64,000 bases of DNA from Diplonema papillatum (Eukaryota; Euglenozoa; Diplonemea; Diplonemida; Diplonemidae): contig JAPJBO010000469.1 in assembly GCA_030068145.1 (NCBI GenBank), positions 110,886 to 174,885 of the forward strand. The letters are read 5' to 3'. The translations under genes and the position numbers were made by a program. Shown here piece after piece: positions 5,990-48,956 of this stretch. The notes below the pieces were generated by a model. It ran no database searches. It was given only the letters and a program-made list of their open reading frames with translations, and had not been told where the DNA came from. How positions within the stretch are numbered: position 1 is the first letter of the stretch; each line of letters opens with the position of its first letter.

Positions 5990-6226
5990 TCACGAAGTCG
6001 AATCCGATGCTGAAGAAGTGCATGATGTTGAAATTGCGCAAGACGCAGCGTTGGCGTCCTGCTCGCCCCACGCAGAGGCAACACGCACCGCAGCGATAAA
6101 ACGGAAGACCTCGGGTGCGATCATCTCGTCGGCAGCGCACTTCAGAACGCTTCTCACAGCAGCGTCATCGCTCAGCAGGCAGAACCTTGCCAAGCACACA
6201 GAAACAAAGCGTTCCTCAAGACCTTC
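5990..6226 (-). CDS. giant helical-repeat gene, exon 9 of 9 (C-terminus)
   Basis: Acceptor CGCACACAG precedes GAAGGTCTTGAGGAACGC at 6226, phase 0, matching the phase-0 end of exon 8. The exon encodes 78 residues and ends in TGA at 5990. The sequence starts as amphipathic helix (EERFVSVCLARFCLLSDD) and finishes with a Ser/Thr-rich tail (TSCTSSASDSTS), as expected of a disordered C-terminus. The last exon is chosen because the frame closes here and no further exon-like segment is seen at lower coordinates before the EAPP locus. A later unrecognised exon in another frame cannot be excluded. Confidence 0.62.
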   Translation of the reverse strand, partial: EGLEERFVSVCLARFCLLSDDAAVRSVLKCAADEMIAPEVFRFIAAVRVASAWGEQDANAASCAISTSCTSSASDSTS

Positions 6227-6617
6227 CTGTGTGCGGTGTCGTACTTTAAGCAAGGGGAAAACATGTTAGTTCCAAAGTTTAGACGCAGAACACGAAGAAA
6301 ATGACAATCTGATTTGTTCTTCGCATACACCACCGTGTGTTGTTTTTTTTTACTCAACACTTTTGACCTTTTGTGTGGTTGTGTGTCTTCTTGTAGGGGT
6401 AGACCTCACGTCTGTTCAACACGGTTTGGTGCAGCACTTGGGATCTTCTTTGTCTGGCAGATTCGTCGAGCATTTCCTTCCAAGCTGGTGCTCATGTAAA
6501 ACACAGGGAAAGGGGGGGGGGTCAAATGTTAGTAGGGGGTCAAATCTTAGTTGTAGATGCTGTATTAGTTAGGGGGGGAGAAATCTTATAGTTTAAGGTT
6601 TCGGGCAGTACTGCGGG

Positions 6618-6835
6618 GGGATTGCAAGAACGTGCTTGGAATGGGTATGTGCTCAACACTGCACTGGTCCCGTCTGCGCCGTGTTTCGGTCCTTTAAGTC
6701 ACGGACACATAAGGCGGACCATCATCAGCGCGGAACCTGAGTGTCTGCAGACAGGACTGCGGTGTGAGTCTGGTTTGTCAGGCGGCTGTTCGTAGCTCGT
6801 CACAGCCAGGACCACCCGTGCTACTAGAGCTCAGG
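6618..6835 (+). repeat. dispersed repeat R2, copy 1
   Basis: About 190-bp sequence with landmarks GTGCTTGGAATGGGTATG, TGTTTCGGTCCTTTAAG and GAGTGTCTGCAGACAGGAC. The same sequence recurs at 12316-12520 (+), 10610-10800 (-), 19490-19625 (-, partial) and 56650-56850 (-). No coding potential. On the opposite strand it contains TGGCTTAGAGG, which resembles a tRNA-type A box, but I could not find a good B box. Confidence 0.8.
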
Positions 6836-7020
6836 CGAATCCGTCACGGGGAGAAGGCCCCTACAACCGTGTCTGAGCAATCAGATAAAAAACTCAGGGC
6901 ACTCGCCCTGATTGTGACTGCGACTCGCTACGCAGCGCTGACTTGTCTTCTTTTTACGGTGGCAATCTGCAGAAGCAAACTCCGCAGAGCACAGTGTTCG
7001 GGCAGTACTGCGGGATTTTG

Positions 7021-7195
7021 TCATACCGATCCTACGTGCTTCGCAGCGAACGCGGCAATTGCGGTTGTGTCCGCGGGTTTCTTCTGTTTGCAGCTGTCGA
7101 TTGCGGCAGACAGAGAGCCCGACGCCCACAAATCCGCCACTCGCAATGCTCCCACCGTTCGTTGGAACGCACCGTAGTAGGAAGGTAAATTTCCC
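7021..7195 (-). pseudogene. truncated copy of exon 8, 3' half with donor site
   Basis: Encodes a match to the second half of exon 8 (VGALRVADLWASGSLSAAID through AKHVGS) and retains the donor (ATCG|GTATGAC). The 5' half and acceptor are missing. It lies downstream of exon 8 within intron 8. Confidence 0.85.
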
Positions 7196-7534
7196 TTGTA
7201 TCCCACCCTAAACAAATTTGTGTCCTTATCCCCCACTCAAAACAAAACTTGTGCCCATAAATCCCACTTCCAACAAGATTTGAGCCCATATATGGTGTGG
7301 TCGGTATAGCCAGGGGGAACTACGGGGGAACTACGGGGAACTGACCTGGGGGTGTCTTTTTTTTTGTGGTGGATTTCTTCAAACGCCACGCACCGGCGCC
7401 AAACCGGGAGCTTTGGAGTGAGCAAAACGGTTCCTCTTGCTTGGGCTTTCCACAGAAGAGCCAAGCCTTTTGAAAAATGGAGCCTTCGGGGTGTCGGGGG
7501 TGGTGCTTTCGTGACGCCGTGGCATGAAGGATTC

Positions 7535-8065
7535 GTTGGAAAGTAGACTCGAACGCTATCGTAGGACTCGCAGAAGTGAAGGCTCACGCTTGCAGGAACC
7601 TAAGTAAAGCCTCTACTACTCTCTCTCGCTACCGGGCCCCCTTCAACGTTCTCCAGAGGACTGAAGGAAAAGCACAGATGTTACCATTGCGTGCTTGTAC
7701 TGTACTTGAAAATAATCGCGTTATCGTGACGGGTGGCAGAGGCCTGATCGAGATCTGCAGGATATCTTGGACAGCCCAGATAAAATTGGCAGCACGGAAT
7801 CAAGAGTCCGGTGATAGACGAAAGGATGTGCTTGCAGAGTCCAACTTGTGTCTGCATGGAAGGGAAGCTGATAAGAAGTTACTTCTTGATTAACTGCATG
7901 CTCTCACCCGAAGCATGCCATTCAAGGCTAATGTTGTTGTGGGCAGACTGCTCTACGATCTCTGGAACAGAAGGATGCAGAGCCCGAAGAACCCAAGGCT
8001 TTGCCGCTCGCCAGCGAAAGAAGCAAGCAAGCCATAGCCTCTCCTTGCGCGCCATTCCGACACTC
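7535..8065 (+). pseudogene. transposase relic of copy A
   Basis: Two blocks match the 786-residue ORF of the intact element: 7545-7760 (GAACGCTATCGTAGGACT onward) and 7830-8060 (TTGTGTCTGCATG onward, matching 45130-45345). The roughly 1.6 kb between these blocks in the intact gene is missing, and several stops and frameshifts are present. Confidence 0.85.
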
Positions 8066-8755
8066 CAATCCCTCTTGGGTTTGGGCAAGAAGGTGATCCG
8101 CAATAGAAGCCCAGGGCGTTTGCATCAGCTCTACTCTGGGAGAATTTGCGGTGTCGCGGTTATCTCTTCGTACGTGATGTGTCATGCTTTCGCCTCTATA
8201 ACTCGGCTTGATCGTCGCGCTCAGGCGCGCGTTTGGTGCCTCGCTTCTTCTTCGATTGCTCGTCCAGGTTCATCGATTGCTGCACCGGCGCGTTCATACG
8301 CCGCACTTCACTTTCAGGTGCTCGTGGCACACCCACTCACTCCACTTTTCGTGTTCCGTAGCGTTGAACACCGCCCATCTCGCCGCACGCTCCGCCCTTC
8401 CACCTCTTCCATCGTCTCCGTACCACCACGGAAGATTGCCCGGCGCGGAGAAGAATGGAGATGGAGGTGTTGTGCTCAGGAGCAAGGGTATGAGGTGGGC
8501 GCGTTGTTGCCAGGTGACTCTCGTGCGCTGCTCTCTCTCCTCTCTCTCTCCTCTCTCCCTGCAGGCAACTGTAGGGGGGAGGGGAGGGGGGGGGGGGCGT
8601 ATGATTCCCTGAGATGTTCGCTTCGGCTTGAGCACTCGGGATGATGACACAGGAGAGGGATAGGGGGTCCGGGGAGGTAGGGTCCCGCCCGAGAATCAGG
8701 GGAGACAAGCTTTGAGATTTCGTCGCGAGGTGACCCCTCGCCCGCTAAAATGCCC

Positions 8756-9803
8756 TCTTTCAGGCCCTCACCCCCTCTCAGGCCCTCACCCCCTCTCAGG
8801 CCCTCACCCCCTCTCAGGCCCTCACCCCCTCTCAGGCCCTCACCCCCTCTCAGGCCCTCACCCCCTCTCAGGCCCTCACCCCCTCTCAGGCCCTCACCCC
8901 CTCTCAGGCCCTCACCCCCTCTCAGGCCCTCACCCCCTCTCAGGCCCTCACCCCCTCTCAGGCCCTCACCCCCTCTCAGGCCCTCACCCCCTCTCAGGCC
9001 CTCACCCCCTCTCAGGCCCTCACCCCCTCTCAGGCCCTCACCCCCTCTCAGGCCCTCACCCCCTCTCAGGCCCTCACCCCCTCTCAGGCCCTCACCCCCT
9101 CTCAGGCCCTCACCCCCTCTCAGGCCCTCACCCCCTCTCAGGCCCTCACCCCCTCTCAGGCCCTCACCCCCTCTCAGGCCCTCACCCCCTCTCAGGCCCT
9201 CACCCCCTCTCAGGCCCTCACCCCCTCTCAGGCCCTCACCCCCTCTCAGGCCCTCACCCCCTCTCAGGCCCTCACCCCCTCTCAGGCCCTCACCCCCTCT
9301 CAGGCCCTCACCCCCTCTCAGGCCCTCACCCCCTCTCAGGCCCTCACCCCCTCTCAGGCCCTCACCCCCTCTCAGGCCCTCACCCCCTCTCAGGCCCTCA
9401 CCCCCTCTCAGGTTCACCCCCTCTCAGGCCCTCACCCCCTCTCAGGCCCTCACCCCCTCTCAGGCCCTCACCCCCTCTCAGGCCCTCACCCCCTCTCAGG
9501 CCCTCACCCCCTCTCAGGCCCTCACCCCCTCTCAGGCCCTCACCCCCTCTCAGGCCCTCACCCCCTCTCAGGCCCTCACCCCCTCTCAGGCCCTCACCCC
9601 CTCTCAGGCCCTCACCCCCTCTCAGGCCCTCACCCCCTCTCAGGCCCTCACCCCCTCTCAGGCCCTCACCCCCTCTCAGGCCCTCACCCCCTCTCAGGCC
9701 CTCACCCCCTCTCAGGCCCTCACCCCCTCTCAGGCCCTCACCCCCTCTCAGGCCCTCACCCCCTCTCAGGCCCTCACCCCCTCTCAGGCCCTCACCCCCT
9801 CGC
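8756..9803. repeat. 18-bp minisatellite, about 58 copies
   Basis: Almost perfect head-to-tail CAGGCCCTCACCCCCTCT. One variant unit near 9408-9423 (CAGGTTCACCCCCTCT, 16 bp) shifts the phase of the array. Because 18 is divisible by three, all frames stay open and give artificial repeats (LSGPHP, RPSPPL, LRGGEG). The strand is strongly C-rich. It sits inside transposon copy A and shares no sequence with other arrays here. Confidence 0.97.
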
Positions 9804-10106
9804 CATTTTTTTTTGCGTCAAAGTTCCTGTTCTGGCCCTCGGCTCCCTTTGAAAAAAGGTTGGCCTCACGACACTGCCCGGAAGATCCACTTTGGTGCAC
9901 ACTTCAAAGTCAATGGCGAGCTCCGCCATCGAGACGTCACCCGCCACCGACCAGCACATCCCATCCAGCCAATACTGCAGCGCCCCCCGGAACCATTTCT
10001 CTCCTCCGACCGCCGCGAAGGTCTCCGGTCCCGCGGTCGCTTCGAAACCCGGCCGGCGCGGGGCCTCTGATAGAACATTTCCTGCTCTCCGCAGCTGATC
10101 TGCCAC
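9792..10106 (-). pseudogene. LINE-like ORF fragment (C-terminal region)
   Basis: A minus-strand frame with WFRGALQYWLDGM and SMAELAIDFEVCTKVDLPG. The same S-x-x-ELA-x-DFE-x-x-T motif recurs in the 118-bp repeats at 13892 and 18442. In my judgement it derives from the C-terminal part of a LINE-type polyprotein; the family is inferred, not shown. It has no RT domain. Confidence 0.45.
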
Positions 10107-10609
10107 TACCTGTCAAACCGTGACTCCCAGTCTGTCCTTTCTTCTCATCCTATTCCTTCCTCTTCGGGGCACGCATAGCACATGGCCGCTCTGCGCAAGT
10201 TGGGGCCGTAATACTGCACCTTTGTAGCTCTTCCGAGGGCCGACTGCAGAAAGTGGTCGCCACAAAGGAATTACCCCCCGTCACCGATTTTGGCCTGGAC
10301 CAGGTCTCCTGGGGTCTTTGATCTTGATATGCTCGAATTACCCGAAATTGTCCGTATTTTGTGACGAAAAAGTGCAAAGTAGCTTAGAAACGCTCTCCAG
10401 GACCCAAGGCTGCATCCCTGAAGCACTCGGCAAAAAAGAAAAGAACCAAAAAAAGAAAGACACCCCCCCCATGTTGAACTACGGGGGAACTACGGGGAAC
10501 TGGCCCACCGACCACACGATCTTCCTAGTCATAAATCTTACTAGTCATGTGACTACGGTTAGTACTGCAGTAGTCATTCTTATGTGAATGAGTCCACTTT
10601 TTTTACAGC

Positions 10610-10800
10610 TGCCTGACTGTGACAGGCTGACAAACCAGACTCACACTGCTGTCCTGTCTGCAGACACTCAGGTTCCGCGCTGATGATGGTCCGCCTTGTG
10701 TGGACCGAAACACGCGCGCAGACGGGACCAGTGCGGTGTTGAGCACATACCCATTCCAAGCACGTTCTTGCAATCCCCCCCCTCCCCCTACGCGCTCCCT
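10610..10800 (-). repeat. dispersed repeat R2, copy 2
   Basis: Reverse-oriented copy of the element at 6618 (AACCAGACTCACAC through CCATTCCAAGCACGTTCTTG), located next to transposon copy A. Confidence 0.8.
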
Positions 10801-11077
10801 CTTCCCCTCCCGACGCGGTTCTCATGTAGGCGCCTTGCCTCCCTTCTGAGGTCCCGTTCTCCTGCCATTATATCTCAATCTGGGATAAAAGGGCACAAGA
10901 TTTGTTTGAAGTGGGATAAAAAGTCTTTTGAGGGAATTGAACCGACCACCCGCGGGTCGAAGGCGCTCATGTGAAACACAGAGAACAGAGAAATAGCGAG
11001 TGCATTTGCCGACGAATGGGGGGCCAAATCTTAGTTGTTGATGCTGTATTAGATAGCGGGGGAGAACTTTGTCATAC

Positions 11078-11332
11078 CGATTCTACGTGCTTCGCAGCGA
11101 ACGCGGCAATTGCGGTTGTGTCCGCGGGTTTGTTCTGTTTGCAGCTGTCGATTGCGGCAGACAGAGAGCCCGACGCCCACGGACCCGCCACGCGCAACGC
11201 TCCCACCATTCGTTGGAACGCACCGTCGGAGGCGTCGGCCAAGAACGACGAAGCTGCGACCAGAAGCGCGTTGTTCGCCGTCGCCGGCGATTGCAGCAGC
11301 AGGTTTACCACGCGATCGATCACCGAGGGCGC
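11078..11332 (-). CDS. giant helical-repeat gene, exon 8 of 9
   Basis: Acceptor CTCTAAAACAG joins GCGCCCTCGGTG at 11332 (phase 0); donor TCG|GTATGAC at 11078 (phase 0). The exon encodes 85 residues of Ala/Leu-rich helix (VIDRVVNLLLQSPATANNAL, AAIAAFAAKHV). The 3' end of intron 7 directly abutting it is a copy of dispersed repeat R3, which supplies the acceptor. A 3'-half copy of the exon lies at 7021-7195. Confidence 0.72.
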
Positions 11333-11337
11333 CTGTT

Positions 11338-11405
11338 TTAGAGTGAAACGTTCGCTTGAAACTCCGGGGTTTTAAAGTCTCTCCGGGTGACCTTCGTCGT
11401 TATGG
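11338..11405 (-). repeat. dispersed repeat R3 forming the 3' end of intron 7
   Basis: On the plus strand TTTTAGAGTGAAACGTTCGC followed by TCCGGGTGACCTTCG. The same consensus lies at or near the 3' ends of introns 3, 4 and 5 and upstream of copies of exon 1. Read on the minus strand its end CTCTAAAACAG is the acceptor of exon 8. Confidence 0.75.
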
Positions 11406-12250: not shown

Positions 12251-12315
12251 GACTGTCGTGTGTCTTCGCGAGACTGGGGCGGATTCAGTACCCGAGGCAC
12301 CAGTGTGTGAGGCTG

Positions 12316-13790: not shown

Positions 13791-13818
13791 CGCCGCGTCG
13801 CGTCGTATTGCGGGAGCA

Positions 13819-19048: not shown

Positions 19049-19234
19049 CGTCTGGCGGGACGCCAAGCTCTCGCACGAGCACACCGCGTCGAGGAGCTCT
19101 GCGCTCGCGGCCACAGCCGCCAACCCGCCGTTTCGGGCTTCGGCCAACAGCGAGTCTTGCCTGCTCTGCAGGATACACAGCACAGCCTCTTCGCAGCCCG
19201 ACTGCAGGAGAAACACCGCGAGCCAAGCTGCCAG
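19049..19234 (-). CDS. giant helical-repeat gene, exon 7 of 9
   Basis: 62 codons, phase 0 at both ends. Donor GACG|GTATGC after 19049. The acceptor is placed at CGGCAG|CTGGCA (19234); CCATAAG|GCT (19243) and TGGCAG|CTT (19227) would keep the same frame. Content is helical (LAAWLAVFLLQSGCEEAVLC, LAAVAASAELLDAVC). Joins exon 6 (EQAVPE) and exon 8 (APSVIDR) without phase conflict. Short, so confidence is lower than for the long exons. Confidence 0.6.
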
Positions 19235-19489
19235 CTGCCGAGCCTTATGGAGTTGGTGTGCGTGGTAGTTTAGTGTCACGTTTTCGGGGGCGCACGCTCT
19301 GTAAACAGGGAGATTCTTTTTCGGAGGAAGCTCTTAAGCCAACCAATGGCCGGGGCGACCACCCCTTGAAGTTCGTATTCTTTGAGTATTTGCTCAAACA
19401 CGGTCACAGGAGCGTTTCTCCCCGGGACTATTTTTCCTGCACTCTCGTTGAACGGGTGGCGGCCCTAGCTGCTGCCTTACAGCAGCCGC

Positions 19490-19625
19490 CTGGCGAACCA
19501 GACTCACATCGCTGCCCCGTCGATGATCCGCCTTGTACGTCCGTGGCTTAAAGGACCGAGCGTCCAGACGACCAGTGCGGTGTTGAACACATAACCATTC
19601 CAAGCCCGTCCTTGCAACAGTTCAG
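19490..19625 (-). repeat. dispersed repeat R2, partial copy 4
   Basis: Reverse-oriented and shortened: contains GAACCAGACTCACA, GGTCCGCC-like sequence, GGCTTAAAGGACCGA and GTGTTGAACACATAACCATT. Confidence 0.65.
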
Positions 19626-19659
19626 TTTCCTCACACATTGCACGTGGCTGAAAAACAAG

Positions 19660-19942
19660 ACACCTCGGGAACGGCTTGTTCAATCGCGACGCGAATGCTG
19701 TCGCCGTCTGATTCGCACAGCGAGGACGCTGGGTCGACGGCCACGTGAGGCGCTCACTTGGCCGTGAGGACCTTCGACTCGAACGGTAGCCGCTCGTTTC
19801 TCGGCATCGTGAGCTTTTTCAGGGGACGAAGCCGGGGGGCGCGGCGTTCGCTCTCGCCCAGGGCTTTGTACAGCTCGAGCCGAATGGCCGCCGACTCGAT
19901 GGGTTCCACAGCAACCCGCACCGCATCGAAGAAGTATACCCA
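19660..19942 (-). pseudogene. truncated copy of exon 6, 3' half with donor
   Basis: Matches 20375-20700 of exon 6 (Val/Glu-rich stretch to AVRDSVEPIESAA equivalents) with frame-disrupting changes. It retains the donor context CCCGAG|GTGTCTTG at about 19660. The 5' half is missing. It lies downstream of exon 6 in intron 6. Confidence 0.85.
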
Positions 19943-20379: not shown

Positions 20380-20989
20380 CTCGGGAACGGCTTGTTCAAT
20401 CGCGACGCGAATGCTGTCGACGTCTGATTCGCGCAGCGAGGACGCTGGGTCGACGGCCACGTGAGGCGCCCACTTGTCCGTGAGGATATTCGACACGAAC
20501 GACAGCCGCTCGTTGCTGGGCACGGCGAGCTCCTTCATTAGCATGGGGACGAAGCCGGGGGGCGCGGCGTTCGGCCAGCACGGCACGTTAAGCGACGCCG
20601 TTTCGCTTTCGCCAGCCAGGGCTTTGTACAGCTCGAGCCGAATCGCCGCCGACTCGATGGGTTCCACGGAATCCCGCACCGCATCAAAAAAGTCGGCAGC
20701 GCTCGCAAGCAGCCTCGAGCCGAGTAGAGCGGCGCCGATCGACGCCTTCACGCTGACGGGGGTCTGCCTCACAGCCTCGCTGTCGTCTTCCGTGCGCCGA
20801 CCGTCGCCCGGAGTCACACCTTCGCCCCGTTCCCCGTCGTCAACCAGCATCCAGCTCCCGTCAGAAGACGACGGCACCAGCGAGTGCACATCGCTTCCCC
20901 CACCGACAGCCCATTCCCTCTTCAGCAGAGCGTGCGCAAACTCCGGGTACCCGCCCAGCAGTTGAATCGCGGTCCTGATAAGCTGCGTC
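20380..20989 (-). CDS. giant helical-repeat gene, exon 6 of 9
   Basis: Acceptor ACACCGCAG joins G|ACG CAG CTT at 20989 (one base completes the CG-G Arg codon left by exon 5). Donor CCCGAG|GTGTCT after 20380, phase 0. About 203 residues: helical start (IRTAIQLLGGYPEFAHALL), an acidic Ser/Asp-rich linker (SSSDGSWMLVDDGERGEG), then helices (GAALLGSRLLASAADFFDAV, IRVAIEQAVPE). Flanked on the upstream side by a 5'-half copy (21157-21390) and downstream by a 3'-half copy (19660-19942). R3-like sequence ends intron 5 just upstream (about 21005-21055). Confidence 0.78.
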
Positions 20990-21156: not shown

Positions 21157-21392
21157 CGAAGCGGCGCCGGTGGACGCCTTCGCGCTGACGGGGGCCTGCC
21201 TCACAGCCTCGCTGTCGTCTTCGGTGACCAGACCGTCGCCCGGAGTCACACCTTCGCCCCGTTCCCCGTCGTCAACCAGCATCCAGCTCCCGTCAGAAGA
21301 CGACGGCACCAGCGAGTGCAGATCGGTTGCCCCACCATTCGGCCCATTCCCTCTTCAGCAGAGCGTGCGCAAACTCCGAGTACCGTCCAGCC
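21157..21392 (-). pseudogene. truncated copy of exon 6, 5' half
   Basis: Matches 20735-20965 (SSSDGSWMLVDDGERGEG region and preceding helix), lies upstream of exon 6 and lacks the 3' half and donor. Confidence 0.85.
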
Positions 21393-22339: not shown

Positions 22340-22775
22340 CGCGCAGCGGCTTTGGTGTACGGTCGCCCGAGGATGGCGTCAAGCACAGCGCACGCGTCGG
22401 GCGTGTTGAGGCACCGCAGCATCAGCGCCGCCGCCGGGATGGCCGACTTGCACGCGACGCCGCGGTTGATGTGGGCGGCTGCCACGCGCACGGCCCTCGC
22501 CGGGCAGTCGTGGGTGCAGAGCGCCAGCAGCAGCCGCAGGCAGGCCGCCGCCGCGCGCGCCCCGGCGGCCTCGTCCGCCGCCAGCCGCGGCTGCTGCGCC
22601 GCCGGCAGGCTCTGCCGGCGGCGGGCCCGGGCCCGCACCGACTCCCGCTGCTCGGCCGTCCGGCGCAGGGCGTCCGAAAACGGGTGGCGCGGGTCGTCGA
22701 CCGCGGGCAGCTGCCTCGGGCAGGGCAACGCGGCAGCCACCGCTGGGTTCAGCGGCAGAACCACGCGTTTTCCGG
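22340..22775 (-). CDS. giant helical-repeat gene, exon 5 of 9
   Basis: Acceptor CTAACAAACAG joins CC|GGA AAA CGC at 22775 (two bases complete the codon left by exon 4). Donor GCGCG|GTATGCC after 22340 leaves two bases for exon 6. About 145 residues: Arg-rich segment (RESVRARARRRQ) then Ala/Leu helices (AAACLRLLLALCTHDCPARA, AALMLRCLNTPDACAVLDAI), consistent with an alpha-solenoid. No truncated copies of this exon were seen in the window. Confidence 0.76.
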
Positions 22776-23275: not shown

Positions 23276-24025
23276 TAGCACAGCACGCTGCCATCCGACA
23301 CTTTTTGATACATACAAGGAAGCTTGTTACCATACAAAAGAAAGCGCCATACAATTTTTGGGGGGTTTTCAGATTTTGAAGTTCACTCGGGTTTCAGAGT
23401 CTCTGTTCGACGGGGCACCCCTGAAGGATACCGTTGGTCACCTCAAACTCCCTCCCCACCCCTAGCGGCAACTTAAAACCGCCGCTCATGTCAGACACAG
23501 CGATCTTCTACTACCCGTCTTGAAACACGGACCAAGGAGTCTAACACGTGTGCGAGGCTTAGGGTGTCAAACCCACAAGCCGCACTGAAAGGGAGATGTG
23601 CCAATCCTTGAGGACGCAGCACAGCCCGATCCTGATTTACTGGAAAGGGATTTGAGGTTAAGTACACTTGTTGGGACCCGAAAGATGGTGAACTATGCCT
23701 GGATAGGACGAAGCCGGGGGAAAGTTCTTTTGAGTACATGAACCACATGGATTAGTATGCACTTTTGACAGCGGTTGCCGAATCATGCCGTAGCACCGTC
23801 CTTTCGCGTTTTTTTTGGCTTTTTCTGATACAAAGAAGGAGGACAAGTACAAACGAATCAAGGACAAGTACAAACGAATCAACTGATGACCTTCGTGTGT
23901 TCGCCACATTTCCAGCGCGAGGAGGATACCAGTCGGTTTAAAATAATATCGATATCGTCAATCTTCTAAGACTTCAGCGTCATAATACAAGACAACAAGA
24001 AACTAGCTCGGACGGAAACAATAAC
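23276..24025. other. intron 4 sequence with R4 copy
   Basis: Contains a copy of dispersed repeat R4 (GAGTACATGAACCACATGG, 23730-23762) and an inner duplication (GACAAGTACAAACGAATCAA twice near 23850-23882). No coding exon recognised. Confidence 0.5.
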
Positions 24026-24027
24026 TA

Positions 24028-24140
24028 ATACATTCCGCGCCGAACACCCCCAGCGGCGTCGAAGAAGTGGTCGAAGATCATCCTCTGGATGTCCGGGCTC
24101 ACGAACGCGAGGTTCGGGTTGGTGGTCTCCGGCGACTCCT
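24028..24140 (-). pseudogene. truncated copy of exon 4, 3' end
   Basis: Matches the last 30 or so codons of exon 4 (TTNPNLAFVSPDIQRMIFDH) and its donor region in decayed form (GGAAT|GTATT). It lies downstream of exon 4 within intron 4. Confidence 0.85.
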
Positions 24141-24810: not shown

Positions 24811-25430
24811 CTTCCACGCCGAACACCCCAGCCGCGTCGAAGAAGTGGTCGAAGATCATCCTCTGGATGTCCGGGCGCACGAACGCGAGGTTCGGGTTGG
24901 TGGTCTCGTAGGCTGGGTAGCGTGTCCGGCTCGTGTCGACGCACGGCGCCCGCGTGAAGCAGGAGAGCGGCAGCGGGCTGCTGTCAGGAGCCTCCTTCGA
25001 AGCTCGGACGGCGGCTAAGAACAGGGCCGGCAACCTGTCTTGCCGGTACCGGAGCACCTGGTTCTCGAACGCCGCCGACTCGAGGAAGGCGGCCGGCGCC
25101 GCCGCCGTGTCGAGCAACTGCTCGACACGGCCGCGCACGCTGCCTTGCGCCTGGAGGTATCCTTCCGCCTCGAACTTCGCGGCGGGGCTGCGAAACCGCT
25201 TGAGGAATACGGGTTCCACCTCCTCGGCCCACCGCGCGCAGCCCAGCACGACGGCGTCCGTGTGCGGGTTGTAGTTCGCCGCGGCGCCCCACACCTTCGC
25301 CCACCGCCGGCACAGGAACGACGCCAGCTCCCGCACTTCCCACGGCACCGCGCGACGCGACAAGCTATCCTGCATCCCCTCCAGAACCACCGCGCAGTCG
25401 TTCGCCGTCAGAGACGCTTTTTCGAGGCAC
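24811..25430 (-). CDS. giant helical-repeat gene, exon 4 of 9
   Basis: Acceptor CACACGGCAG joins G|TGC CTC GAA at 25430; the single base completes the AG-G Arg codon left by exon 3. Donor GGAAG|GTATTCG after 24811. About 206 residues: SLSRRAVPWEVRELASFLCR, LDTAAAPAAFLESAAFENQV, LPALFLAAVRAS and a C-terminal PDIQRMIFDHFFDAAG helix. The 5' 190 bases are duplicated many times upstream (25.7-29.4 kb), and the 3' end is duplicated downstream (24.03 kb). The intact exon differs from the copies (AAANYN versus DAANYN) and is the only one that continues past ARWAEEVEPVFL. Confidence 0.82.
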
Positions 25431-28400
25431 CTGCCGTGTGGGTGGGAGAAGTTGTGCTGTTTTAACTCTTAAACAGTTTTGTCAAATTTGTGTGGTTTTA
25501 TATTCTATAAGAGTAAAAGTTCGCTTGAGAATCCGGGATTTTAGAGTCTCCGGGTGACCTTGACGGAAGCACCTGCTTTGTAGGAAATACTTGAGGAGTC
25601 TGGCAGTTACGAAATCTCAAAGTAGGTGAATGTGGCGGAGCCCACACGAAACACAGGTAAATATGGGCTTAGTGGCGGGCGTAAGCGTTCGACAAAAAGC
25701 ATTTTTCTCCCGCCGCGCGCAGCCCAGCACGACGGCGTCCGTGTGCGGGTTGTAGTTCGCCGCGTCGCCCCACACCTTCGCCCACCGCCGGCACAGGAAC
25801 GACGCCAGCTCCCGCACTTCCCACGGCACCGCGCGACGCGACAAGCTATCCTGCATCCCCGTCAGAACCACCGCGCAGTCGTTCGCCGTCAGAGACGCTT
25901 TTTCGAGGCACCTGCCGTGTGGGTGGGAGAAGTTGTGCTGTTTTAACTCTTAAACAGTTTTGTGTGGTTTTATATTTTATAAGAGTAAAAGTTCGCTTGA
26001 GAATCCGGGATTTTAGAGTCTCCGGAAGACCTTCGTCGAACGATGGGTTCTTTGAAAGCTAATAGAAGTACTGGGGTTTTTTGGATAAGCACCTGCTTTG
26101 TAGGAAATAGTTGAGGAGACTGGCAGTTGCGAAATCTCAAAGGAGGTGAATGTGCCGGAGCCTACACGAAACACAGGTAAATATGGGCTTAGTGGCGGGC
26201 GTAAGCGTTCGACAAAAAGCATTTTCTCCCGCCGCGCGCAGCCCAGCACGACGGCGTCCGTGTGCGGGTTGTAGTTCGCCGCGTCGCCCCACACCTTCGC
26301 CCACCGCCGGCACAGGAACGACGCCAGCTCCCGCTCTTCCCACGGCACCGCGCGACGCGACAAGCTATCCTGCATCCCCGTCAGAACCACCGCGCAGTCG
26401 TTCGCCGTCAGAGACGCTTTTTCGAGGCACCTGCCGTGTGGGTGGGAGAAGTTGTGCTGTTTTAACTCTTAAACAGTTTTGTCAAATTTGTGTGGTTTTA
26501 TATTCTATAAGAGTAAAAGTTCGCTTGAGAATCCGGGATTTTAGAGTCTCCGGGTGACCTTGACGGAAGCACCTGCTTTGTAGGAAATACTTGAGGAGAC
26601 TGAAATCTCAAAGGAGGTGAGCCCACACGAAACACAGGTAAATATGGGCTTAGTGGCGGGCGTAAGCGTTCGACAACAAACATTTTCTCCCGCCGCGCGC
26701 AGCCCAGCACGACGGCGTCCGTGTGCGGGTTGTAGTTCGCCGCGTCGCCCCACACCTTCGCCCACCGCCGGCACAGGAACGACGCCAGCTCCCGCACTTC
26801 CCACGGCACCGCGCGACGCGACAAGCTATCCTGCATCCCCGTCAGAACCACCGCGCAGTCGTTCGCCGTCAGAGACGCTTTTTCGAGGCACCTGCCGTGT
26901 GGGTGGGAGAAGTTGTGCTGTTTTAACTCTTAAACAGTTTTGTGTGGTTTTATATTTTATAAGAGTAAAAGTTCGCTTGAGAATCCGGGATTTTAGAGTC
27001 TCCGGAAGACCTTCGTCGAACGATGGGTTCTTTGAAAGCTAGTAGAAGTACTGGGGTTTTTTGGATAAGCACCTGCTTTGTAGGAAATAGTTGAGGAGAC
27101 TGGCTGTTGCGAAATCTCAAAGGAGGTGAATGTGCCGGAGCCTACACGAAACACAGGTAAATATGGGCTTAGTGGCGGGCGTAAGCGTTCGACAAAAAGC
27201 ATTTTCTCCCGCCGCGCGCAGCCCAGCACGACGGCGTCCGTGTGCGGGTTGTAGTTCGCCGCGTCGCCCCACACCTTCGCCCACCGCCGGCACAGGAACG
27301 ACGCCAGCTCCCGCACTTCCCACGGCACCGAGCGACGCGACAAGCTATCCTGCATCCCCGTCAGAACCACCGACCTTGACGGAAGCACCTGCTTTGTAGG
27401 AAATACTTGAGGAGACTGGCAGTTGCGACATCTCAAAGGAGGTGAATGTGCCGGAGCCCGCACGAAACAAGGTAAATGTGCTGTAGCCCGCACGAAACAA
27501 GGTAAATGTGCTGTAGCCCGCACGAAACACAAGTAAATCTGGGGTTAGTGGCGGGCGTAAGCGTTCGACAAAAAGCATTCTCCCACCGCGCGCAGCCCAG
27601 CACGACGGCGTCCGCGTGCGGGTTGTAGGTGGCCGCGTCGCCCCACTGCTTCGCCCACCGCCGGCACAGGAACGACGCCAGCTCCCGCACTCCCCGCGGC
27701 ACCGCGCGACGCGACAAGCTGTCCTGCATCCCCATCAGAACCACCGAGCAGTCGAGACGCTTTTTCAAGGCACCTGCCGTGTGGATGGGAGAAATTGTGC
27801 TGTTTCAACAGTTTGCATTTTTGGGTACCTGCTTTGTAGGTAATACTTGAGAGGACCGCCAGTTGCGAAATCTCGATGGAGGAAAGGTAAATGTGCTGTA
27901 GCCCGCTCGAAACACAAGTAAATCTGGGGTTAGTGGCGGGCGTAAGCGTTCGACAAAAAGCATTCTCCCACCGCGCAGCCCAGCACGACGGCGTCCGCGT
28001 GCGGGTTGTAGGTGGCCGCGTCGCCCCACACCTTCGCCCACCGAACGACGCCAGCTCCCGCACTCCCCGCGGCACCGCGCGACGCGACAAGCTGTCCTGC
28101 ATCCCCATCAGAACCACCGAGCAGTCGAGACGCTTTTTCGAGGCACCTGCCGTGTGGATGGGAGAAATTGTGCTGTTGCAACAGTTTGCATTTTTGGGTA
28201 CCTGCTTTGTAGGTAATACTTGAGAGGACCGCCAGTTGCGAAATCTCGAAGGAGGAAAGGTAAATGTGCTGTAGCCCGCTCGAAACACAAGTAAATCTGG
28301 GGTTAGTGGCGGGCGTAAGCGTTCGACAAAAAGCATTCTCCCACCGCGCAGCCCAGCACGACGGCGTCCGCGTGCGGGTTGTAGGTGGCCGCGTCGCCCC

Positions 28401-29490
28401 ACACCTTCGCCCACCGAACGATGCCAGCTCCCGCACTCCCCGCGGCACCGCGCGACGCGACAAGCTGTCCTGCATCCCATCAGAACCACCGAGCAGTCGA
28501 GACGCTTTTTCGAGGCACCTGCCGTGTGGATGGGAGAAATTGTGCTGTTGCAACCGTTTGCATGTTTGGGTACCTGCTTTGTAGGTGGAGAAATTGTGCT
28601 GTTTCAACAGTTTGCATTTTTGGGTACCTGCTTTGTAGGTAATACTTGAGAGGACCGCCAGTTGCCAAATCTCGAAGGAGGAAAGGTAAATGTGCTGTAG
28701 CCCGCACGAAACACAACTAAATCTGGGGTTAGTGGCGGGGCGTAAGCGTTCGACAAAAAGCATTCTCCCACCGCGCGCAGCCCAGCACGACGGCGTCCGC
28801 GTGCGGGTTGTAGGTGGCCGCGTCGCCCCACTGCTTCGCCCACCGCCGGCACAGGAACGACGCCAGCTCCCGCACTCCCCGCGGCCACACACGACGCGAC
28901 AAGCTGTCCTGCATCCCATCAGAACCACCGAGCAGTCGAGACGCTTTTTCGAGGCACCTGCCGTGTGGATGGGAGAAATTGTGCTGTTGCAACCGTTTGC
29001 ATGTTTGGGTACCTGCTTTGTAGGTGGAGAAATTGTGCTGTTTCAACAGTTTGCATTTTTGGGTACCTGCTTTGTAGGTAATACTTGAGAGGACCGCCAG
29101 TTGCCAAATCTCGAAGGAGGAAAGGTAAATGTGCTGTAGCCCGCACGAAACACAACTAAATCTGGGGTTAGTGGCGGGGCGTAAGCGTTCGACAAAAAGC
29201 ATTCTCCCACCGCGCGCAGCCCAGCACGACGGCGTCCGCGTGCGGGTTGTAGGTGGCCGCGTCGCCCCACTGCTTCGCCCACCGCCGGCACAGGAACGAC
29301 GCCAGCTCCCGCACTCCCCGCGGCCACACACGACGCGACGAGCTGTCCTGCATCCCCATCAGAACCACCGAGCAGTCGCCGTCAGAGACGCTTTTTCCAG
29401 GCGGCCGGCGTGTGGATGGGAGAAATCTTGCTGTTTGAACAGTTTTGCGTTTTTGGGCAAGCACCTGCTTCGTAGGTAATACTTGAGAAG
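25431..29490 (-). repeat. array of truncated exon 4 copies in intron 3
   Basis: About nine units, each reading on the minus strand: R3-like intron end (in the first three to four units), acceptor, the first roughly 190 bases of exon 4 (CLEKASL to VLGCAR), then a reversed R1 fragment starting GGGAGAAAATGC. Exon-derived parts lie near 25710-25911, 26230-26430, 26690-26890, 27210-27373, 27580-27773, 27965-28147, 28340-28517, 28765-28957 and 29205-29400. The units nearest exon 4 are most similar to it; the far ones show small deletions. None contains the exon 4 donor or 3' two thirds, so none can act as a complete internal exon. Confidence 0.9.
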
Positions 29491-30909: not shown

Positions 30910-31425
30910 AAAGTAAAAGAAATGCACCTGTGGTACAGGGCGACCCGGGACAAAGCCTGCCGCGTTCTCCGGCGGGCTTTGTCGCGTAGGCATCTGCGAG
31001 CGCGCGGTACTGGGCGGTGCGTCGCTTGCGCACGGGAGCCTGCGCCTGCACGGCGGGTCTGCCGCCACGCGGCTTCGGCGGCGCGGGGCGCCGCCGAAGC
31101 ACCCAACGGCCGGCGGGATCGGCTGCATGTGCGCGGCCAGCGCGACGAGGCCGGGCGCCGCGGACGCAAGGTTCCACGCCCACCGCTGCGACAGCGTCGC
31201 CACGGCGGCCCGGTACAGCGCGTCACTCCCGGCGCAGTGCCTCGGGAGGGGACGCCAGCTGCGACACAGCCAGGGCGGTCAACCCGCTGACCTTGGTGAA
31301 CCACCCGTACCCTCGCACTCTAATGGACCCTGCGACAGTGGCGGCGATTGTCCGCCTACACGCCGCCGAGATGCCACCACTTCCACCCGCATCTACAGAC
31401 CCCGCAAACCCCGCGCTCTTCCTAA
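30910..31425 (-). pseudogene. truncated copy of exon 3, 3' part (distal copy)
   Basis: Matches the last 170 or so codons of exon 3 in two blocks and keeps the donor (CACAG|GTGCATTTC at about 30925). It contains small deletions, for example the segment SRGAAAERVRKRR is missing. The 5' bulk of exon 3 is absent. Confidence 0.88.
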
Positions 31426-31902
31426 CTATGGAGGTGAACCGAGCGCTGTTCAGCATCACCACGTGTAAAGCCTGCCGCAAAACTTCACCAAGTACACAGA
31501 ACCCCCTCCCTCCGAAAGAAAGTCGATCCGCGGGAGCCGGAAAATACGTGAGCTGGACCATTTTGTCCGCCGGTCCAGCATATTTCGGTACGGTAGTAAC
31601 ATCTTCGACCACACGCCACCTAGGTGCGTGCTGCCACTTCCACCCGGGAAACCTGGGTTGCCCTTGCGCTCACGCGCTTCTATGGAGGTGAACCGAGCGC
31701 TGTGTTAGCGTCACTTACCACGTGTAAGGCCTGCCGCAAAACTTCATAAAGTACAGCCCCCGAAAGAAAGTCGATCCGCGGAAGCCTGAAAAATGAGTGT
31801 GCTGGACCATTTGTCCGCCGGTCCAGCACATTTCTGTCCGGTAGCATTTTTTTTTTGTACGGTAGTAACTTCTTACGTGGCAGTGTTCAAGAAAAAGAAA
31901 CG
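31426..31902. repeat. spacer of the 1004-bp duplication
   Basis: Identical or nearly identical to 32430-32909: contains GTGAGCTGGACCATTTTG, the palindromic GGACCA...GGTCC core (also in the 29.5-kb repeat) and ATGGAGGTGAACCGAGCGC twice. No gene. Confidence 0.85.
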
Positions 31903-32430
31903 CACCTGTGGTACAGGGCGACGCCGGCGAACCCGCCGCGTTCTCCGGCGGGCTTTGTCGCGTAGGCATCTGCGAGCGCGCGGTACTGGACGGTGCGGCG
32001 CTTGCGCACGCGTTCGGCGGCGGCGCCGCGGGAGAACCGGAGCCTGCGCCTGCACGGCGGGTCTGCCGCCACGCGGCTTCGGCGGCGCGGGGCGCCGCCG
32101 AAGCACCCAGCGGCCGGCGGGATCGGCTGCATGTGCGCGGCCAGCGCGATGAGGCCGGGCGCCTCGGACGCAAGGTTCCACGCCCACCGCTGCGACAGCG
32201 TCGCCACGGCGGCCCGGTACAGCGCGTCACTCCCGGCGCAGTGCCTCGGGAGGGGACGCCAGCTGCGACACAGCCAGGGCGGTCAACCCGCTGACCTTGG
32301 TGAACCACCCGTACCCTCGCACTCTAATGGACCCTGCGACAGTGGCGGCGATTGTCCGCCTACACGCCGCCGAGATGCCACCACTTCCACCCGCATCTAC
32401 AGACCCCGCAAACCCCGCGCTCTTCCTAAC
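31903..32430 (-). pseudogene. truncated copy of exon 3, 3' part (proximal copy)
   Basis: Lies 1004 bases from the matching part of intact exon 3 and keeps the donor at about 31905. The copy ends within exon 3 sequence near the segment encoding RWKWWHLGG. Very similar to the intact exon, so the duplication is recent. Confidence 0.9.
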
Positions 32431-32909: not shown

Positions 32910-35287
32910 CTGTGGTACAGGGCGACGCCGGCGAACCCGCCGCGTTCTCCGGCGGGCTTTGTCGCGTAGGCATCTGCGAGCGCGCGGTACTGGACGGTGC
33001 GGCGCTTGCGCACGCGTTCGGCGGCGGCGCCGCGGGAGAACCGGAGCCTGCGCCTGCACGGCGGGTCTGCCGCCACGCGGCTTCGGCGGCGCGGGGCGCC
33101 GCCGAAGCACCCAGCGGCCGGCGGGATCGGCTGCATGTGCGCGGCCAGCGCGATGAGGCCGGGCGCCTCGGACGCAAGGTTCCACGCCCACCGCTGCGAC
33201 AGCGTCGCCACGGCGGCCCGGTACAGCGCGTCACTCCCGGCGCAGTACCTCGGGAGGGACGCCAGCTGCGACACAGCCAGGGCGGTCAACCCGCTGACCT
33301 TGGTGAACCACCCGTACCCTCGCACTCCAATGGACCCCGCAACGGTAACAGCGATGTCCGACCACACGCCGCCGAGGTGCCACCACTTCCACCGCATCTG
33401 CGTCCCCCGCAGGTCCCGCTCCGCCGCCGCCTTCAGCACACCGTTGCACTCCCTCAACACGTCGTCCTCGGGTATATACCACCCGCACACTTCGTACGCC
33501 AGCGCCGTGCCCACCCTGCACCGCCGCATGGCCGACGACAGCGCCACGAGCGTCCCGTTCTGATTGTGACACCAACCCCTCAAGTACTGAAACGCGAGGT
33601 CTTGCCCTTCGCCGGTGACGACGTCGCACCCGGCGAGCCGGCGGAAGGCGCAGCAGACCAGGCTGCGGACGGGGGCGTAGGTCAGGTAGCTGCGGGGGAA
33701 GGGGTTGGTGAGCGCCTGCGGGAAGCAAGGGCGCGCCTTTTTTTGGGCAACCACGCAGTCGATCGTCACAAGCGGGTCTGACGGGCAGGGGACTAAGTAC
33801 ACGGCCGGCAGACACAGCCGGAGGACCAGCCGCGCGGCGGTCGCCGACATGGGCACGGGGACGGCGTTCAGCAGCCGCCGCAGCCGCAGTTGGGGACCCG
33901 CGGAGGCGGTGAAGACGTCCCAGCGGCAGCCGTGGCAGATCGCGGCGGCGCTCGAAAGGCTCGCCGCCGCCGCCCAGTCGGACGAAGGCACCTTGGCGTA
34001 GTGCTTGAAGGCTGCGTCGGACGCCAGCTCCGCTTGGATCGCCCGCGCGCCGTCCCTGCTGACGGGCCCGGGGATCGGCGCCCGCATCTCGACCACCCTC
34101 TCCTGCACGGAACCGTACGCGTTCAGCAGCCGGCTCCGGAGGCCGGCGTCGACACCCGGGCTGAAGACGGGGGTGCACATGCGGAACTCCTGCTTGAGCG
34201 CGTTGCCGTCCGGGTGGCCCTCCCACACCGACTCGACGAGCTGCCACAAGGGCTGCGCCGCGAGGGCAGCTGGGATGCCGTCGGACGGGTTCGGGTGGTG
34301 AGATGAGGGAGCACCGGCGGGGATGCCGTCGGGCTTGTTCGGGTGCGACGAGAACGCGGCGGCAGGGATGCCTTCCGACACGTTCAGGTGAGGTGAGAGT
34401 GCAAGAGCAGGGTGGATGCTTCCAGCAACAGGAATGCCTTCGGACTCGTTCAGGTGAGATGAGGGTGCAAGAGCAGGGTAGATGCTCTCAGCGACAGGGA
34501 TGCCTCCAGCGGGTTCCGGTCGCAGCGAGGTTGCACCCGCAGGAGGTATACCGCCGGCGAGGAGAAACGCAGCGACCCCCGCCGCGAACTGCGTCCACGC
34601 AGTCCACCAAGGGCCGGGGCCCCAGCGTACAGTGAATTCGACCAGCCTGCGCAACGCGCCGAGGGCGGTGTCCCCGCTGCCGCGCCGCGCGACTATGGAC
34701 ACCCACTGCGCCGGCGCCAGCTGGCTTGCGGAGAGGACCGCGTGGAGCAGGGCGCAGCGGACGTCTTCCTGCTCGTTCGCGACGCGTTCGGAGACAAACG
34801 CGAGGGTGCGCGCGATGCCGTCGCCGCCGCCGCTGCCGGCCGCCGCCGTCCACAAGGCAACCAGCGACGAAAGACGGGCCTCGGGGCTTTTCGTGGACGC
34901 CGCGACCTGCCGGAGGACTGCCTCGCTTTCGCCGAAGGGGAGGAGGGTGAGCCACTCGACGCGGTTCCAGGGGACGGTCTGGTCCCGCGGGATGGCGGCG
35001 CACACGGCGCTTCGGATCGCGGCGTCCGCCTTGAAGTCGGCGACCGCCACGTTCGGTTCACTGAGCATCGCGGAGACGGTCTCCAGCCGCGAGCGGAAGG
35101 CTTCCAAAAGCGAGGCGCGCCGGCGGCTGCTCCCTTTGGTCGACGCGAACACCGCTTTCAGCACGGCGGCAGCCGACACCGTCTGCCGGCGCCCCGCCCA
35201 ACGGTCGAAGTCGCGGGCGTAGAACTTCGCCAATTCGGACGCCGACAGCCTCGTCTCGTACAAGCGGAACGCAGCAGGGTGCAGGTC
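32910..35287 (-). CDS. giant helical-repeat gene, exon 3 of 9
   Basis: The largest exon (2,378 bases, about 792 codons). Acceptor CACACGTAG joins GAC CTG CAC at 35287 (phase 0). Donor ACCACAG|GTGCG after 32910 leaves two bases. Order: helices (SASELAKFYARDFDRWAGRR, VVLKAVF-like), HEAT-like segments (LLPFGESEAVLRQVAASTK, ARLSSLVALWTAAAG, DVRCALLHAVLSASQLAP), then at about residues 600-710 of the full protein a degenerate tandem repeat with the core EGIPVAxSIxPALAxSSHLN (five to six copies). More helices follow (LRLRRLLNAVPVPMSATAAR, LVCCAFRRLAG), ending in an Arg-rich tail. Family not recognised. Its 3' part is duplicated downstream. Confidence 0.85.
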
Positions 35288-37071: not shown

Positions 37072-37603
37072 CTCGATGTAGGTCACGAGGCAGTCCGCGT
37101 CCGTGCAGGCTCTGCCCAGGGCGAGGACGAGATCCAAGGGCGGAACGAAGCGCTCGACGACGCGGGCCGGCGCCGCCAGTCTCCGGCTGTCGTCGCACGA
37201 CCGCACGCAGCGGCAGTGGTCGTTCCGGATCTTCGGCACCGGGGCCGGCCTCACCGACACGTACCCCCCGCCGTTGAACATCAACCCCAGCACCTGCGCG
37301 AAGTCCTCGCCGGCCACCCGCTTCCGGGCCAGCTTCCCGAGAACCTCGAGGCAGGGCTCTCGCACCGCCGCGGCGCCCGGCATCCTCAGCAGCTTCTTCG
37401 CGACGTGCAGCGCGAGCTGCGTGACGGTGTCGGCTCCGGAGACGATCTCCAGCGCTTTGAGGGGGCGCCGCTTCACGAGAGGGCGGACCAGGTACCACTG
37501 TGCGCTGGTCGAAGCCAAGGCGTCGCCGGGGGCTGCGTGGAGGAGCAACTCGGCGACGTCGTCCGGGTGGGTGGCCGCGATTTGGCAGCTGCTCCTGTAG
37601 TAC
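37072..37603 (-). CDS. giant helical-repeat gene, exon 2 of 9
   Basis: Acceptor GAAACTTCAG joins G|TAC TAC AGG at 37603; the single base completes the AG-G codon from exon 1. Donor ATCGAG|GTTTGT after 37072, phase 0. About 177 residues: THPDDVAELLLHAAP, KALEIVSGADTVTQLALHVA, LEVLGKLARKRVAGEDFAQV, VPPLDLVLALGRACTDADCL. The repeated alternating helices look like HEAT/ARM units. No truncated copies seen. Confidence 0.78.
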
Positions 37604-40638: not shown

Positions 40639-40640
40639 GG

Positions 40641-45418: not shown

Positions 45419-45797
45419 CGCAGAAACGTCACAGGTTTGCAGACTGGGTTATTTCATCAAGATGTTGGAACCGTTTGACCGTCGAGATCCCACAAATTTC
45501 GCTTTCCAATTTCCGGAGGACGTGTGCCGTCTTGTTTTTTGGTCGTTTTATTTTGTTTTTACGCAGTGTCTTCTTCTTCATCCTCTTGGCTTTCCGACCT
45601 TCGTGGGCCAAATATCATCAGAATTGTCCACATTGTGTGACAGAAAGGTGCAAAGTCGCTAGGAAGTGCTCGCCAAGATCAAGAATCACAGCCCTGAAGT
45701 ACTCAGCAAAAACTGAAAAAGCAAAAAAAAAAAACGACACCCCCCCCCCTGGTTGAACTACGGGGGAACTACGGGGAACTGGCCCACCGACCACACC

Positions 45798-46738
45798 ATC
45801 TTGTGTCTTTTTTTTTTTTTTTTTTTTTTTTAATTTCCACCCCCGGTTTCGCCTGCCCCGTGGTTTTCCTACTGCCAGCCCCTTTCCGCCAGCGAGGATC
45901 CCAGCAGAAGGCAACACGGTGACCGCCGTGTCCTCTTGACCCGAAACGCCGGCCTCCAAAGGTGGGCCTGTACCACCAGACCGCATGCCCGGCACGGCCA
46001 CTCGCGCACCAAAAAACCCCAGCGCTGCGGGCCGTCACACTAAAGCGGTGCTGTGCGGCGGTATCCTACACATGCGGACGCATACCAGGCGCGCACCGGT
46101 GCAGGCCGTCTACCACCCTCCCGGGCCCGCGATCGACGCACCTCATCGACGGCCTCACCCAGACTTGAGGCAGCCGGGAGCGCGCAAGAGGAGCAAAGAA
46201 ACGGCAGCAGACCCTTGTCGGCGGTTCGCTGGAGGATAGTCACTCGAAGCTAATGCAGATTATCACCACAGACTCTTCGCACTCTAACCCAAGACACTCG
46301 AGGCAGATCACAGTAAACGGTTGCCCAGGGAGTGCCAAGCAGTGTCTCTTTCTCCAAAGCAGCCGGAGCCGACGCGGATCACAGCCAAAGAGTATCAGTC
46401 TCTTCCATCCCTGCACATGCGGACACATACCAGGTGCGCACGCCGGCGAAGGGCCTCCACCACCCTGAGCCACCGGGCTGGCGATCGCCGCATCTCGGTC
46501 TCTTCCGGCGATGCAGATCATCGCCACAGATTATCTGCGTTCTAACCCAGACGGCCTAGCCGCACACGGGCGCGAAAGAAAACAAAACAAATAATGCTGC
46601 GGCGGACCTCTGGTCGGCGGTTCGCTTGATGGTAGTCACCCGAGGCAGATCACAGCAAATGGTGTCAAGCAGTATCCCTCTTCCAGCCGAAGCGGACCGC
46701 AGTCAAAGAGCTGTAGAGAGTGTCTAGAGAGTGCCGAG
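45798..46738. other. intron 1 sequence with poly-T and degenerate repeats
   Basis: Poly-T 45808-45831. 46030-46700 contains loosely repeated ACACATGCGGACRCATACCAGG / CGCACCGG segments (46070, 46415) and GGCGATCGCC-type variants. No gene. Confidence 0.5.
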
Positions 46739-47580
46739 CAGTGTCCCTCTCCCAAAGCAGTCACGCCGAAGCGCGCTCACAGTCAATGGGTTTCCCAAAG
46801 CAGTCACGCCGAAGCGCGCTCACGGTCAATGGGTATCCCAAAGCAGTCACGCCGAAGCGCGCTCACAGTCAATGGGTATGTAGAGAGTGCTAAGCAGTGT
46901 CCCTCTTCCAAAGCAGTCACGCCGAAGCGCGCTCACGGTCAATGGGAATCCCAAAGCAGTCACGCCGAAGCGCGCTCACGGTCAATGGGTATCCCAAAGC
47001 AGTCACGCCGAAGCGCGCTCACAGTCAATGGGTATGTAGAGAGTGCTAAGCAGTGTCCCTCTTCCAAAGCAGTCACGCCGAAGCGCGCTCACGGTCAATG
47101 GGAATCCCAAAGCAGTCACGCCGAAGCGCGCTCACGGTCAATGGGTATCCCAAAGCAGTCACGCCGAAGCGCGCTCACAGTCAATGGGTATGTAGAGAGT
47201 GCTAAGCAGTGTCCCTCTTCCAAAGCAGTCACGCCGAAGCGCGCTCACGGTCAATGGGAATCCCAAAGCAGTCACGCCGAAGCGCGCTCACAGTCAATGG
47301 GTATCCCAAAGCAGTCACGCCGAAGCGCGCTCACAGTCAATGGGTATCCCAAAGCAGTCACGCCGAAGCGCGCTCACAGTCAATGGGTATGTAGAGAGTG
47401 CTAAGCAGTGTCCCTCTTCCAAAGCAGTCACGCCGAAGCGCGCTCACGGTCAATGGGAATCCCAAAGCAGTCACGCCGAAGCGCGCTCACAGCCAATGGG
47501 TATGTAGAGAGTGCCAAGCAGTGTCCCTCTTCTAAAGCAGTCACGCCGAAGCGCGCCCACGGTCAATGGGTATTCAGTCA
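46739..47580. repeat. 43-bp tandem repeat with 156-bp higher-order unit
   Basis: Basic unit CCAAAGCAGTCACGCCGAAG-CGCGCTCACRGTCAATGGG (43 bp). Units are interrupted by TGTAGAGAGTGCTAAGCAGT at 46879, 47035, 47191, 47390 and 47503. Spacings are 156, 156, 199 and 113, i.e. 156 plus or minus one 43-bp unit. Open frames through it are a by-product. Confidence 0.95.
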
Positions 47581-48231
47581 GAGTCACAGAAACCGCGTCG
47601 GGCTTCAAGAGATGCAGCCGAGAACACCCGCTGCACCCGGTACTCTGCTCCCGGTCGAAGTCAGTTCCGGGAAGCGACAGTCGCGAGACACCAAAACAAA
47701 ATCGAAGGATACTGTTTGGTAGATTTCGCTCCTGCCGACGCTTGCACGAAATTAGCTGACAATAAACCTCCAGTATATAGGGGGGGAAAACTTAGTTTAA
47801 TGTTTAGGCAGAGTACTGCCTCGCGGGGGGGGGGGGTCAGGTCAGATTCTGCCAACGACTCCGCAATCTGGCCGCTTAGGGCCACCCCTGGGGGGGTACC
47901 CACCCCCACCCAGGGTTAGCAACTTCGTTTTGGGTCTCAGGCTTAGTATCAGCACTGCCCCCCCCCCCCCCCTTTTTATCCCGGTGGCGGACATATGGCG
48001 GCACGGCAAACCATAAAAAAAAAGGTCCGAGACCGACATTGTCCGCCAAAGTCTAACTGACACGTTCCCCATGTTTCAAACCCCCCCGATTGCGCGTAAC
48101 CTGGAAGCACCCAGGGGGTGTGTCGGTGGTACAAAAAGGTGCAGTTGCCCGCATCCATCCGGCAACCAGCTCGCATCGGGGAGGTGACGCTACCCCCCTG
48201 GACAAGGTGTCCTGTGCCCCGTGGGTAGTAC
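47581..48231. other. 5' part of intron 1
   Basis: Begins on the minus strand at the exon 1 donor (48231). Contains G- and C-runs (47825, 47958) and TAACTGACACGTTCCC at 48055. No gene. Confidence 0.5.
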
Positions 48232-48956
48232 CTGAAGTCGAACTTCGCCTCCCGTTCGAGGATCCGCAGGAAGAGGCGTGGGTGCTTGATGGAAACGCTC
48301 TGCCAGACCGCCTCCAAGTCGGCGCGGGAGGAGTATGCGTGCAGTCTCGCGGCCTTCGGCTTCGGAACCGAGCTCGCGAGCTTCGAGACGATCGGGAGCC
48401 AATGCTCAAGGACCCGCTCGGTTTGCTCACCCCTCGGCAACCTTTGCAGGAGGAGCACGGCCTGCCAGTACCCTCCCCACGTCGGCTCGGCTAGGACTAC
48501 GGTGATGAAGGCGTCGCAGCGGCCGTCCTCAGGGGGTCCAGCTAAACAGAGCAGCTTCATGCCGATTCCCTTCAGCTGCGCTGGTGTCGCTTCGTCGCTG
48601 ATGACCCGGTAGAGCGCTACTTGGTCGACTTTCGCCAGGGCTTGCACAGCGCGTGCCCGCACGATCGTCGATTCGCTGCGGCGGATGAGCGCCACGAGCA
48701 CGTCCGCGCTGCCTTGGGCCATGGCGGCGACGACGGTGTAGATGCCCAGCCACGCATCCACGGCCCTCGGGTCGTTTTTCGCGCGCGCCAGCTGCGCCGC
48801 GGCCAGCGGCGAACGCTCCTTCGCGAGCGCGGCCGCCGCCCGCATGCGCGCGTTGTGCCCGGGAATCCGCCACATCACGCCTTCGAAGGTCCCGTCGTCG
48901 ACATCCTCGTCGGGCACGATCCATCTCGACAAGGCGCTGGCATCATCGCGGGCCAT
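48232..48956 (-). CDS. giant helical-repeat gene, exon 1 of 9 (N-terminus)
   Basis: ATG at 48956 (GTAAGAATGGCC) opens 241 codons plus two bases. Donor CTTCAG|GTACTAC after 48232. The protein begins MARDDASALSRWIVPDEDVD and then forms short helical repeats: RMRAAAALAKERSPLAAAQL, WLGIYTVVAAMAQGSADVLV, ALIRRSESTIVRARAVQALA, YWQAVLLLQRL, ADLEAVWQSVSIKHPRLFLR. The style is HEAT-like. The start is supported because all upstream fragments (49-53.6 kb) that include this point preserve ATG GC[G/C] CG. No signal peptide or membrane segment. Confidence 0.82.

Follow-up and report, generated by a model that had tools for sequence, protein, structure and literature searches.

DIPPA_23226, a 43-kb nine-exon gene of Diplonema papillatum with partial copies of its exon edges and a diverged sister gene

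Genes of Diplonema papillatum, a marine flagellate of the diplonemids, have been described as having long introns that carry mobile elements, and dozens of them are reported to have adjacent repeats; one such repeat-bounded gene is backed by PacBio and RNA-seq data, and copies of this kind can mislead gene predictors (PMC10161547, section 7). Here we describe DIPPA_23226, which lies on the minus strand of a 64,000-nt window (contig C469, positions 110886-174885) of the 271-Mb D. papillatum genome. As in that account, where they sit beside the expressed gene, tandem partial copies of the gene adjoin its exons, which makes DIPPA_23226 a probable repeat-bounded gene. Whereas that section deals with 5' regions and the 3' ends of first exons, at DIPPA_23226 the internal exons 3, 4, 6, and 8 are copied as well, and several splice sites are kept. 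We consider it highly probable that the locus is one 43-kb gene of nine exons, whose product would be a helical-solenoid scaffold and whose introns would have grown by insertion and duplication, the three taken jointly. Because the gene is already on record, our finding mainly confirms an annotation, adding a sister gene, DIPPA_16119, and the question of where exon 7 begins; new here are the sister, the difference in exon-7 acceptor, and a map locating exon-edge copies that have intact splice sites.

DIPPA_23226 is a real nuclear gene of D. papillatum that has already been deposited, with a hypothetical protein as its product. A search with the joined protein found a single match among 7,984 candidates scored, the hypothetical protein DIPPA_23226 of 1,995 amino acids (P0001). 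Nine minus-strand exons form a single open frame that ends in a TGA stop and contains no internal stop, and all eight introns are GT-AG. The deposited model spans 42,967 nt, of which 5,988 nt are exons and 36,979 nt introns (86% intronic), with four introns measuring 4.9-10.6 kb. The exons, each with the number of aligned residues that are identical in the sister gene, are as follows:

48232-48956, minus strand: exon 1, with the ATG, 725 nt; 106 of 237 identical (sister exon C66:253577-254337)
37072-37603, minus strand: exon 2, 532 nt; 63 of 170 identical
32910-35287, minus strand: exon 3, 2,378 nt; 190 of 606 identical
24811-25430, minus strand: exon 4, 620 nt; 44 of 188 identical
22340-22775, minus strand: exon 5, 436 nt; 63 of 138 identical
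20380-20989, minus strand: exon 6, 610 nt; 69 of 190 identical
19049-19243, minus strand: exon 7, 195 nt as deposited (19049-19234 as originally predicted); 17 of 62 identical
11078-11332, minus strand: exon 8, 255 nt; 11 of 85 identical, the weakest exon
5990-6226, minus strand: exon 9, 237 nt including the TGA; 15 of 49 identical, with about 30 of its 79 codons finding no alignment to the sister

The original prediction, made from the sequence alone, had proposed a single gene, of nine exons and with a long protein product, and was correct to within 9 nt. Its nine minus-strand segments do total 5,979 nt, or 1,993 codons with the stop, with no internal stop and eight GT-AG introns, and the intron phases (2, 0, 2, 1, 2, 0, 0, 0) and boundaries that it listed were confirmed. 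Its error lay in the exon-7 acceptor: the model supplies 1,992 of the 1,995 residues of P0001, the sole difference being ARQ, which is missing at the exon 6/7 join, where the deposited exon 7 of the same gene begins 9 nt earlier. When the acceptor is moved upstream by those 9 nt, from 19234 to 19243, the translation becomes identical to P0001. Both acceptors are preceded by AG and keep the frame, and the DNA alone fits the use of either or both. The gene was also called hidden, which its annotation as DIPPA_23226 contradicts, and the chance of phase agreement was put at about 1 in 6,500, an overstatement given the many alternative frame-keeping GT/AG pairs near the boundaries. Within 100 nt of the boundaries, and with splice-site strength unweighted, introns 1-7 (intron 8 was left out of the count) each offer 28-210 GT/AG pairs that leave the flanking frames open, 12-80 of which keep the frame. 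Phase agreement by itself is weak evidence; the model is convincing because of the deposited protein and the sister gene rather than this statistic. A diplonemid spliced-leader stretch matched 650 places at up to two mismatches, and its reversed control matched none.

A diverged match on contig C66, in a search of the organism's own genome with exon 1, led to DIPPA_16119. Joined and translated, its eight exons give precisely the D. papillatum hypothetical protein deposited under that tag (1,833 amino acids, P0002). Global alignment of P0001 with P0002 pairs 1,729 residues, 582 of them identical (~34%; 583 when end gaps are scored differently), and scores 1,408, against a best of -223 among 20 shuffles. 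The exon order is the same from end to end, and six of the seven sister introns are held in common: four coincide to the aligned residue with introns 1, 2, 5, and 8, two more lie within two residues of introns 6 and 7, and all six agree in phase between the two genes (compared by hand from the exon places). DIPPA_16119 differs in having neither intron 3 nor intron 4 but one private intron between their places, and in lacking most of the Gly-Ile-Pro-rich repeat stretch found in exon 3 of DIPPA_23226. A sister gene with mostly conserved introns is better support for the gene model than the phases are. Some details are less clear: exon 8 conserves just 11 of 85 residues in the sister, exon 9 as a whole shows no bias toward G or C at third codon positions (GC3), and in exons 3 and 4 conservation relative to the sister is no lower at third codon positions than at first positions. 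No third gene was found in own-genome searches with exons 1 and 3, which matched contigs C469, C2406, and C66 only.

Fragments of five exons out of the nine are repeated nearby, in 31 same-strand matches, some of them overlapping, to which one 36-nt inverted match inside exon 4 is added (expect value, E, up to 1e-5, with self-matches and matches sharing less than 25 nt with an exon dropped). Pieces from the 5' side sit upstream of their exon (16 from exon 1, nine from exon 4, and one from exon 6), those carrying the 3' end sit downstream (two from exon 3 and one each from exons 4, 6, and 8), and the copies differ from their exons by 1-29%. They are distributed as follows, a slash marking the splice point:

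49176-53887, minus strand: exon 1 pieces upstream of exon 1; 16 matches, some overlapping, 71-99% identical, from the first 462 nt and the 5' flank
30911-32418, minus strand: exon 3, 3' end, copied twice within intron 3; each copy has the donor CACAG/GTGC
25709-29440, minus strand: exon 4, 5' part, copied nine times within intron 3; every copy ends at exon nt 203, and seven have the acceptor CACGGCAG/GTGCC
24016-24129, minus strand: exon 4, 3' end, copied once within intron 4
21160-21391, minus strand: exon 6, nt 31-262, copied once within intron 5
19620-19935, minus strand: exon 6, 3' end and donor, copied once within intron 6
7017-7181, minus strand: exon 8, 3' end and donor, copied once within intron 8

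The two remaining exon-4 copies comprise one that has lost the acceptor and one that does not include that part. DIPPA_16119 shows the same habit, with seven matches to its first and fourth exons, one of them inverted. The only Rfam matches in the window are fragments of large-subunit (LSU) ribosomal RNA (rRNA) at 49500-49843 (plus strand), 54258-54450 (minus strand), and 23541-23674 (plus strand); the first accounts for 344 nt of a 350-nt interruption in one exon-1 copy, between exon nt 89 and 90. An 18-bp unit is repeated 58 times (99% matching) in intron 8, at 8760-9801.

With two extra exon-3 donors and seven extra exon-4 acceptors in intron 3, all apparently intact, the intronic copies could be read as alternative exons through which the locus makes several proteins. 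We find this very unlikely, as all nine exon-4 copies stop short at the same exon position, four of them meet a stop after 71-97 codons when read from the acceptor and one after 14 (the other four show no stop within 120 nt past the copy), and the deposited protein uses none of the copies. That the copies are assembly errors is equally hard to credit. Contig C2406 carries exon 1 again, 100% identical, along with its upstream pieces, and there is therefore some redundancy in the assembly, which is probably what this contig's copy represents; the copies around the exons, however, have diverged from them to the extent given above, one exon-1 copy is interrupted by an rRNA fragment, and long reads are reported to confirm a like structure at another gene (PMC10161547, section 7). 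Least probable of all is an artifact of gene prediction in which separate genes, two or more, or a decaying pseudogene were strung together, an idea prompted by the four long introns, the repeats throughout, and the partial exon copies, but opposed by a frame open across 1,995 codons and by a sister on another contig that keeps both the exon order and six matching introns.

For a single repeat-bounded gene, the introns would have grown through repeat insertion and through tandem duplications spanning exon edges. Each such duplication would leave one intact exon and a spare copy in the intron or flank, and the spare copies would survive selection because splicing or transcript processing removes them. 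Tandem duplications would strike anywhere, and those inside an exon would survive only if in frame; a 66-bp tandem repeat at 34363-34505, within the open frame of exon 3, may be an example. Intron 3 carries three near-identical donors and eight near-identical acceptors, of which the outermost pair would have to be joined, which would imply a rule beyond local sequence. As a whole, the broader proposal that exon-edge duplication is ongoing, fills introns with spare splice sites whose pairing follows such a rule, and may create introns (to which the direct repeats at intron ends would point) strikes us as doubtful.

Direct repeats border three introns: one of 14 bp containing AG/GT at intron 1 (boundaries 48232 and 37603), one of 11 bp, likewise containing AG/GT, at the private intron of the sister (C66:267824-271127), and one of 7 bp at the sister's own intron 1. 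The idea that introns arose from a mobile element, its termini becoming those of the intron, is not supported by the matches listed. In intron 1 the repeat families start ~440-460 nt inside (40 scored of 3,558 candidates) and stop ~30-40 nt ahead of the acceptor (40 scored of 4,943 candidates). In the sister's private intron, at its 5' end, they mostly start ~250 nt inside (40 scored of 4,380 candidates), though two short matches on contig C1101 start 32 and 51 nt inside. An origin of intron 3 as a duplicated exon segment was rejected, its ends matching across by 3 and 4 nt only. The literature on intron gain by duplication yielded no account in our search.

The product itself had been characterized in the original prediction as HEAT/ARM-like, which we find plausible for exon 1 only. 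There, the Pfam family HEAT_2 scores 21.5 bits, below the curated cut-off of 27.7 and hence outside the family by that measure (all nine exons were scanned; the sister's model gives 14.4 bits), and a predicted structure of exon 1 is all-helix, with a mean predicted local distance difference test score (pLDDT) of 67 and a predicted template modeling score (pTM) of 0.53. This lends the description weak support at the N terminus, against which full-length P0001 does not match HEAT at any E up to 1. Foldseek found no match to the exon 1 model at E 0.001 or better, and the rows for HEAT/ARM solenoid proteins (importin beta, symplekin, Integrator, and SF3b chains) show 9-13% identity, with no family standing out. 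Confidence in the exon 3 model was too low for use.

Sequence searches added little to this picture. Two weak Pfam matches, exon 2 to Keratin (E 0.0071) and exon 3 to Inhibitor_I68 (E 0.15), fell under their cut-offs and were taken as chance, and the remaining six exons (4-9) had no Pfam match. The NCBIfam search gave no match, nor did a PDB sequence search for exon 3 or for the two-gene profile. A protein search with exon 3 found none at E up to 1, under length limits that would exclude a 1,995-amino-acid protein. No relatives beyond P0001 and P0002 were found, the joined protein listing P0001 only and alignment A1 listing P0002 only; this absence is weak evidence because the searches missed each other's gene at 34% identity, even though A1 contained P0001. 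Literature searches on diplonemid HEAT repeats and on tandem or repeat-bounded exons of D. papillatum listed no description of the gene, and neither locus tag was named in the papers searched. On balance, the product may be a large solenoid of alpha helices with HEAT-like character at the N terminus, one that would act as a scaffold or adaptor binding other proteins and not as an enzyme.

Since D. papillatum is reported to be genetically manipulatable (PMC12621601), the locus offers a test case for how distant splice sites are paired, with near-identical competing sites in one intron of a manipulatable protist. It also warns that exon copies can mislead gene predictors, as PMC10161547 notes. 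Elsewhere in the window lie the following:

1859-2755, minus strand, as the gene: open frame with a Pfam Eapp_C match above the cut-off; part of it recurs within 3049-3738
58776-61238 and 61798-63780, plus strand: a pair of open frames that match reverse transcriptases and share 85% DNA identity over ~1 kb
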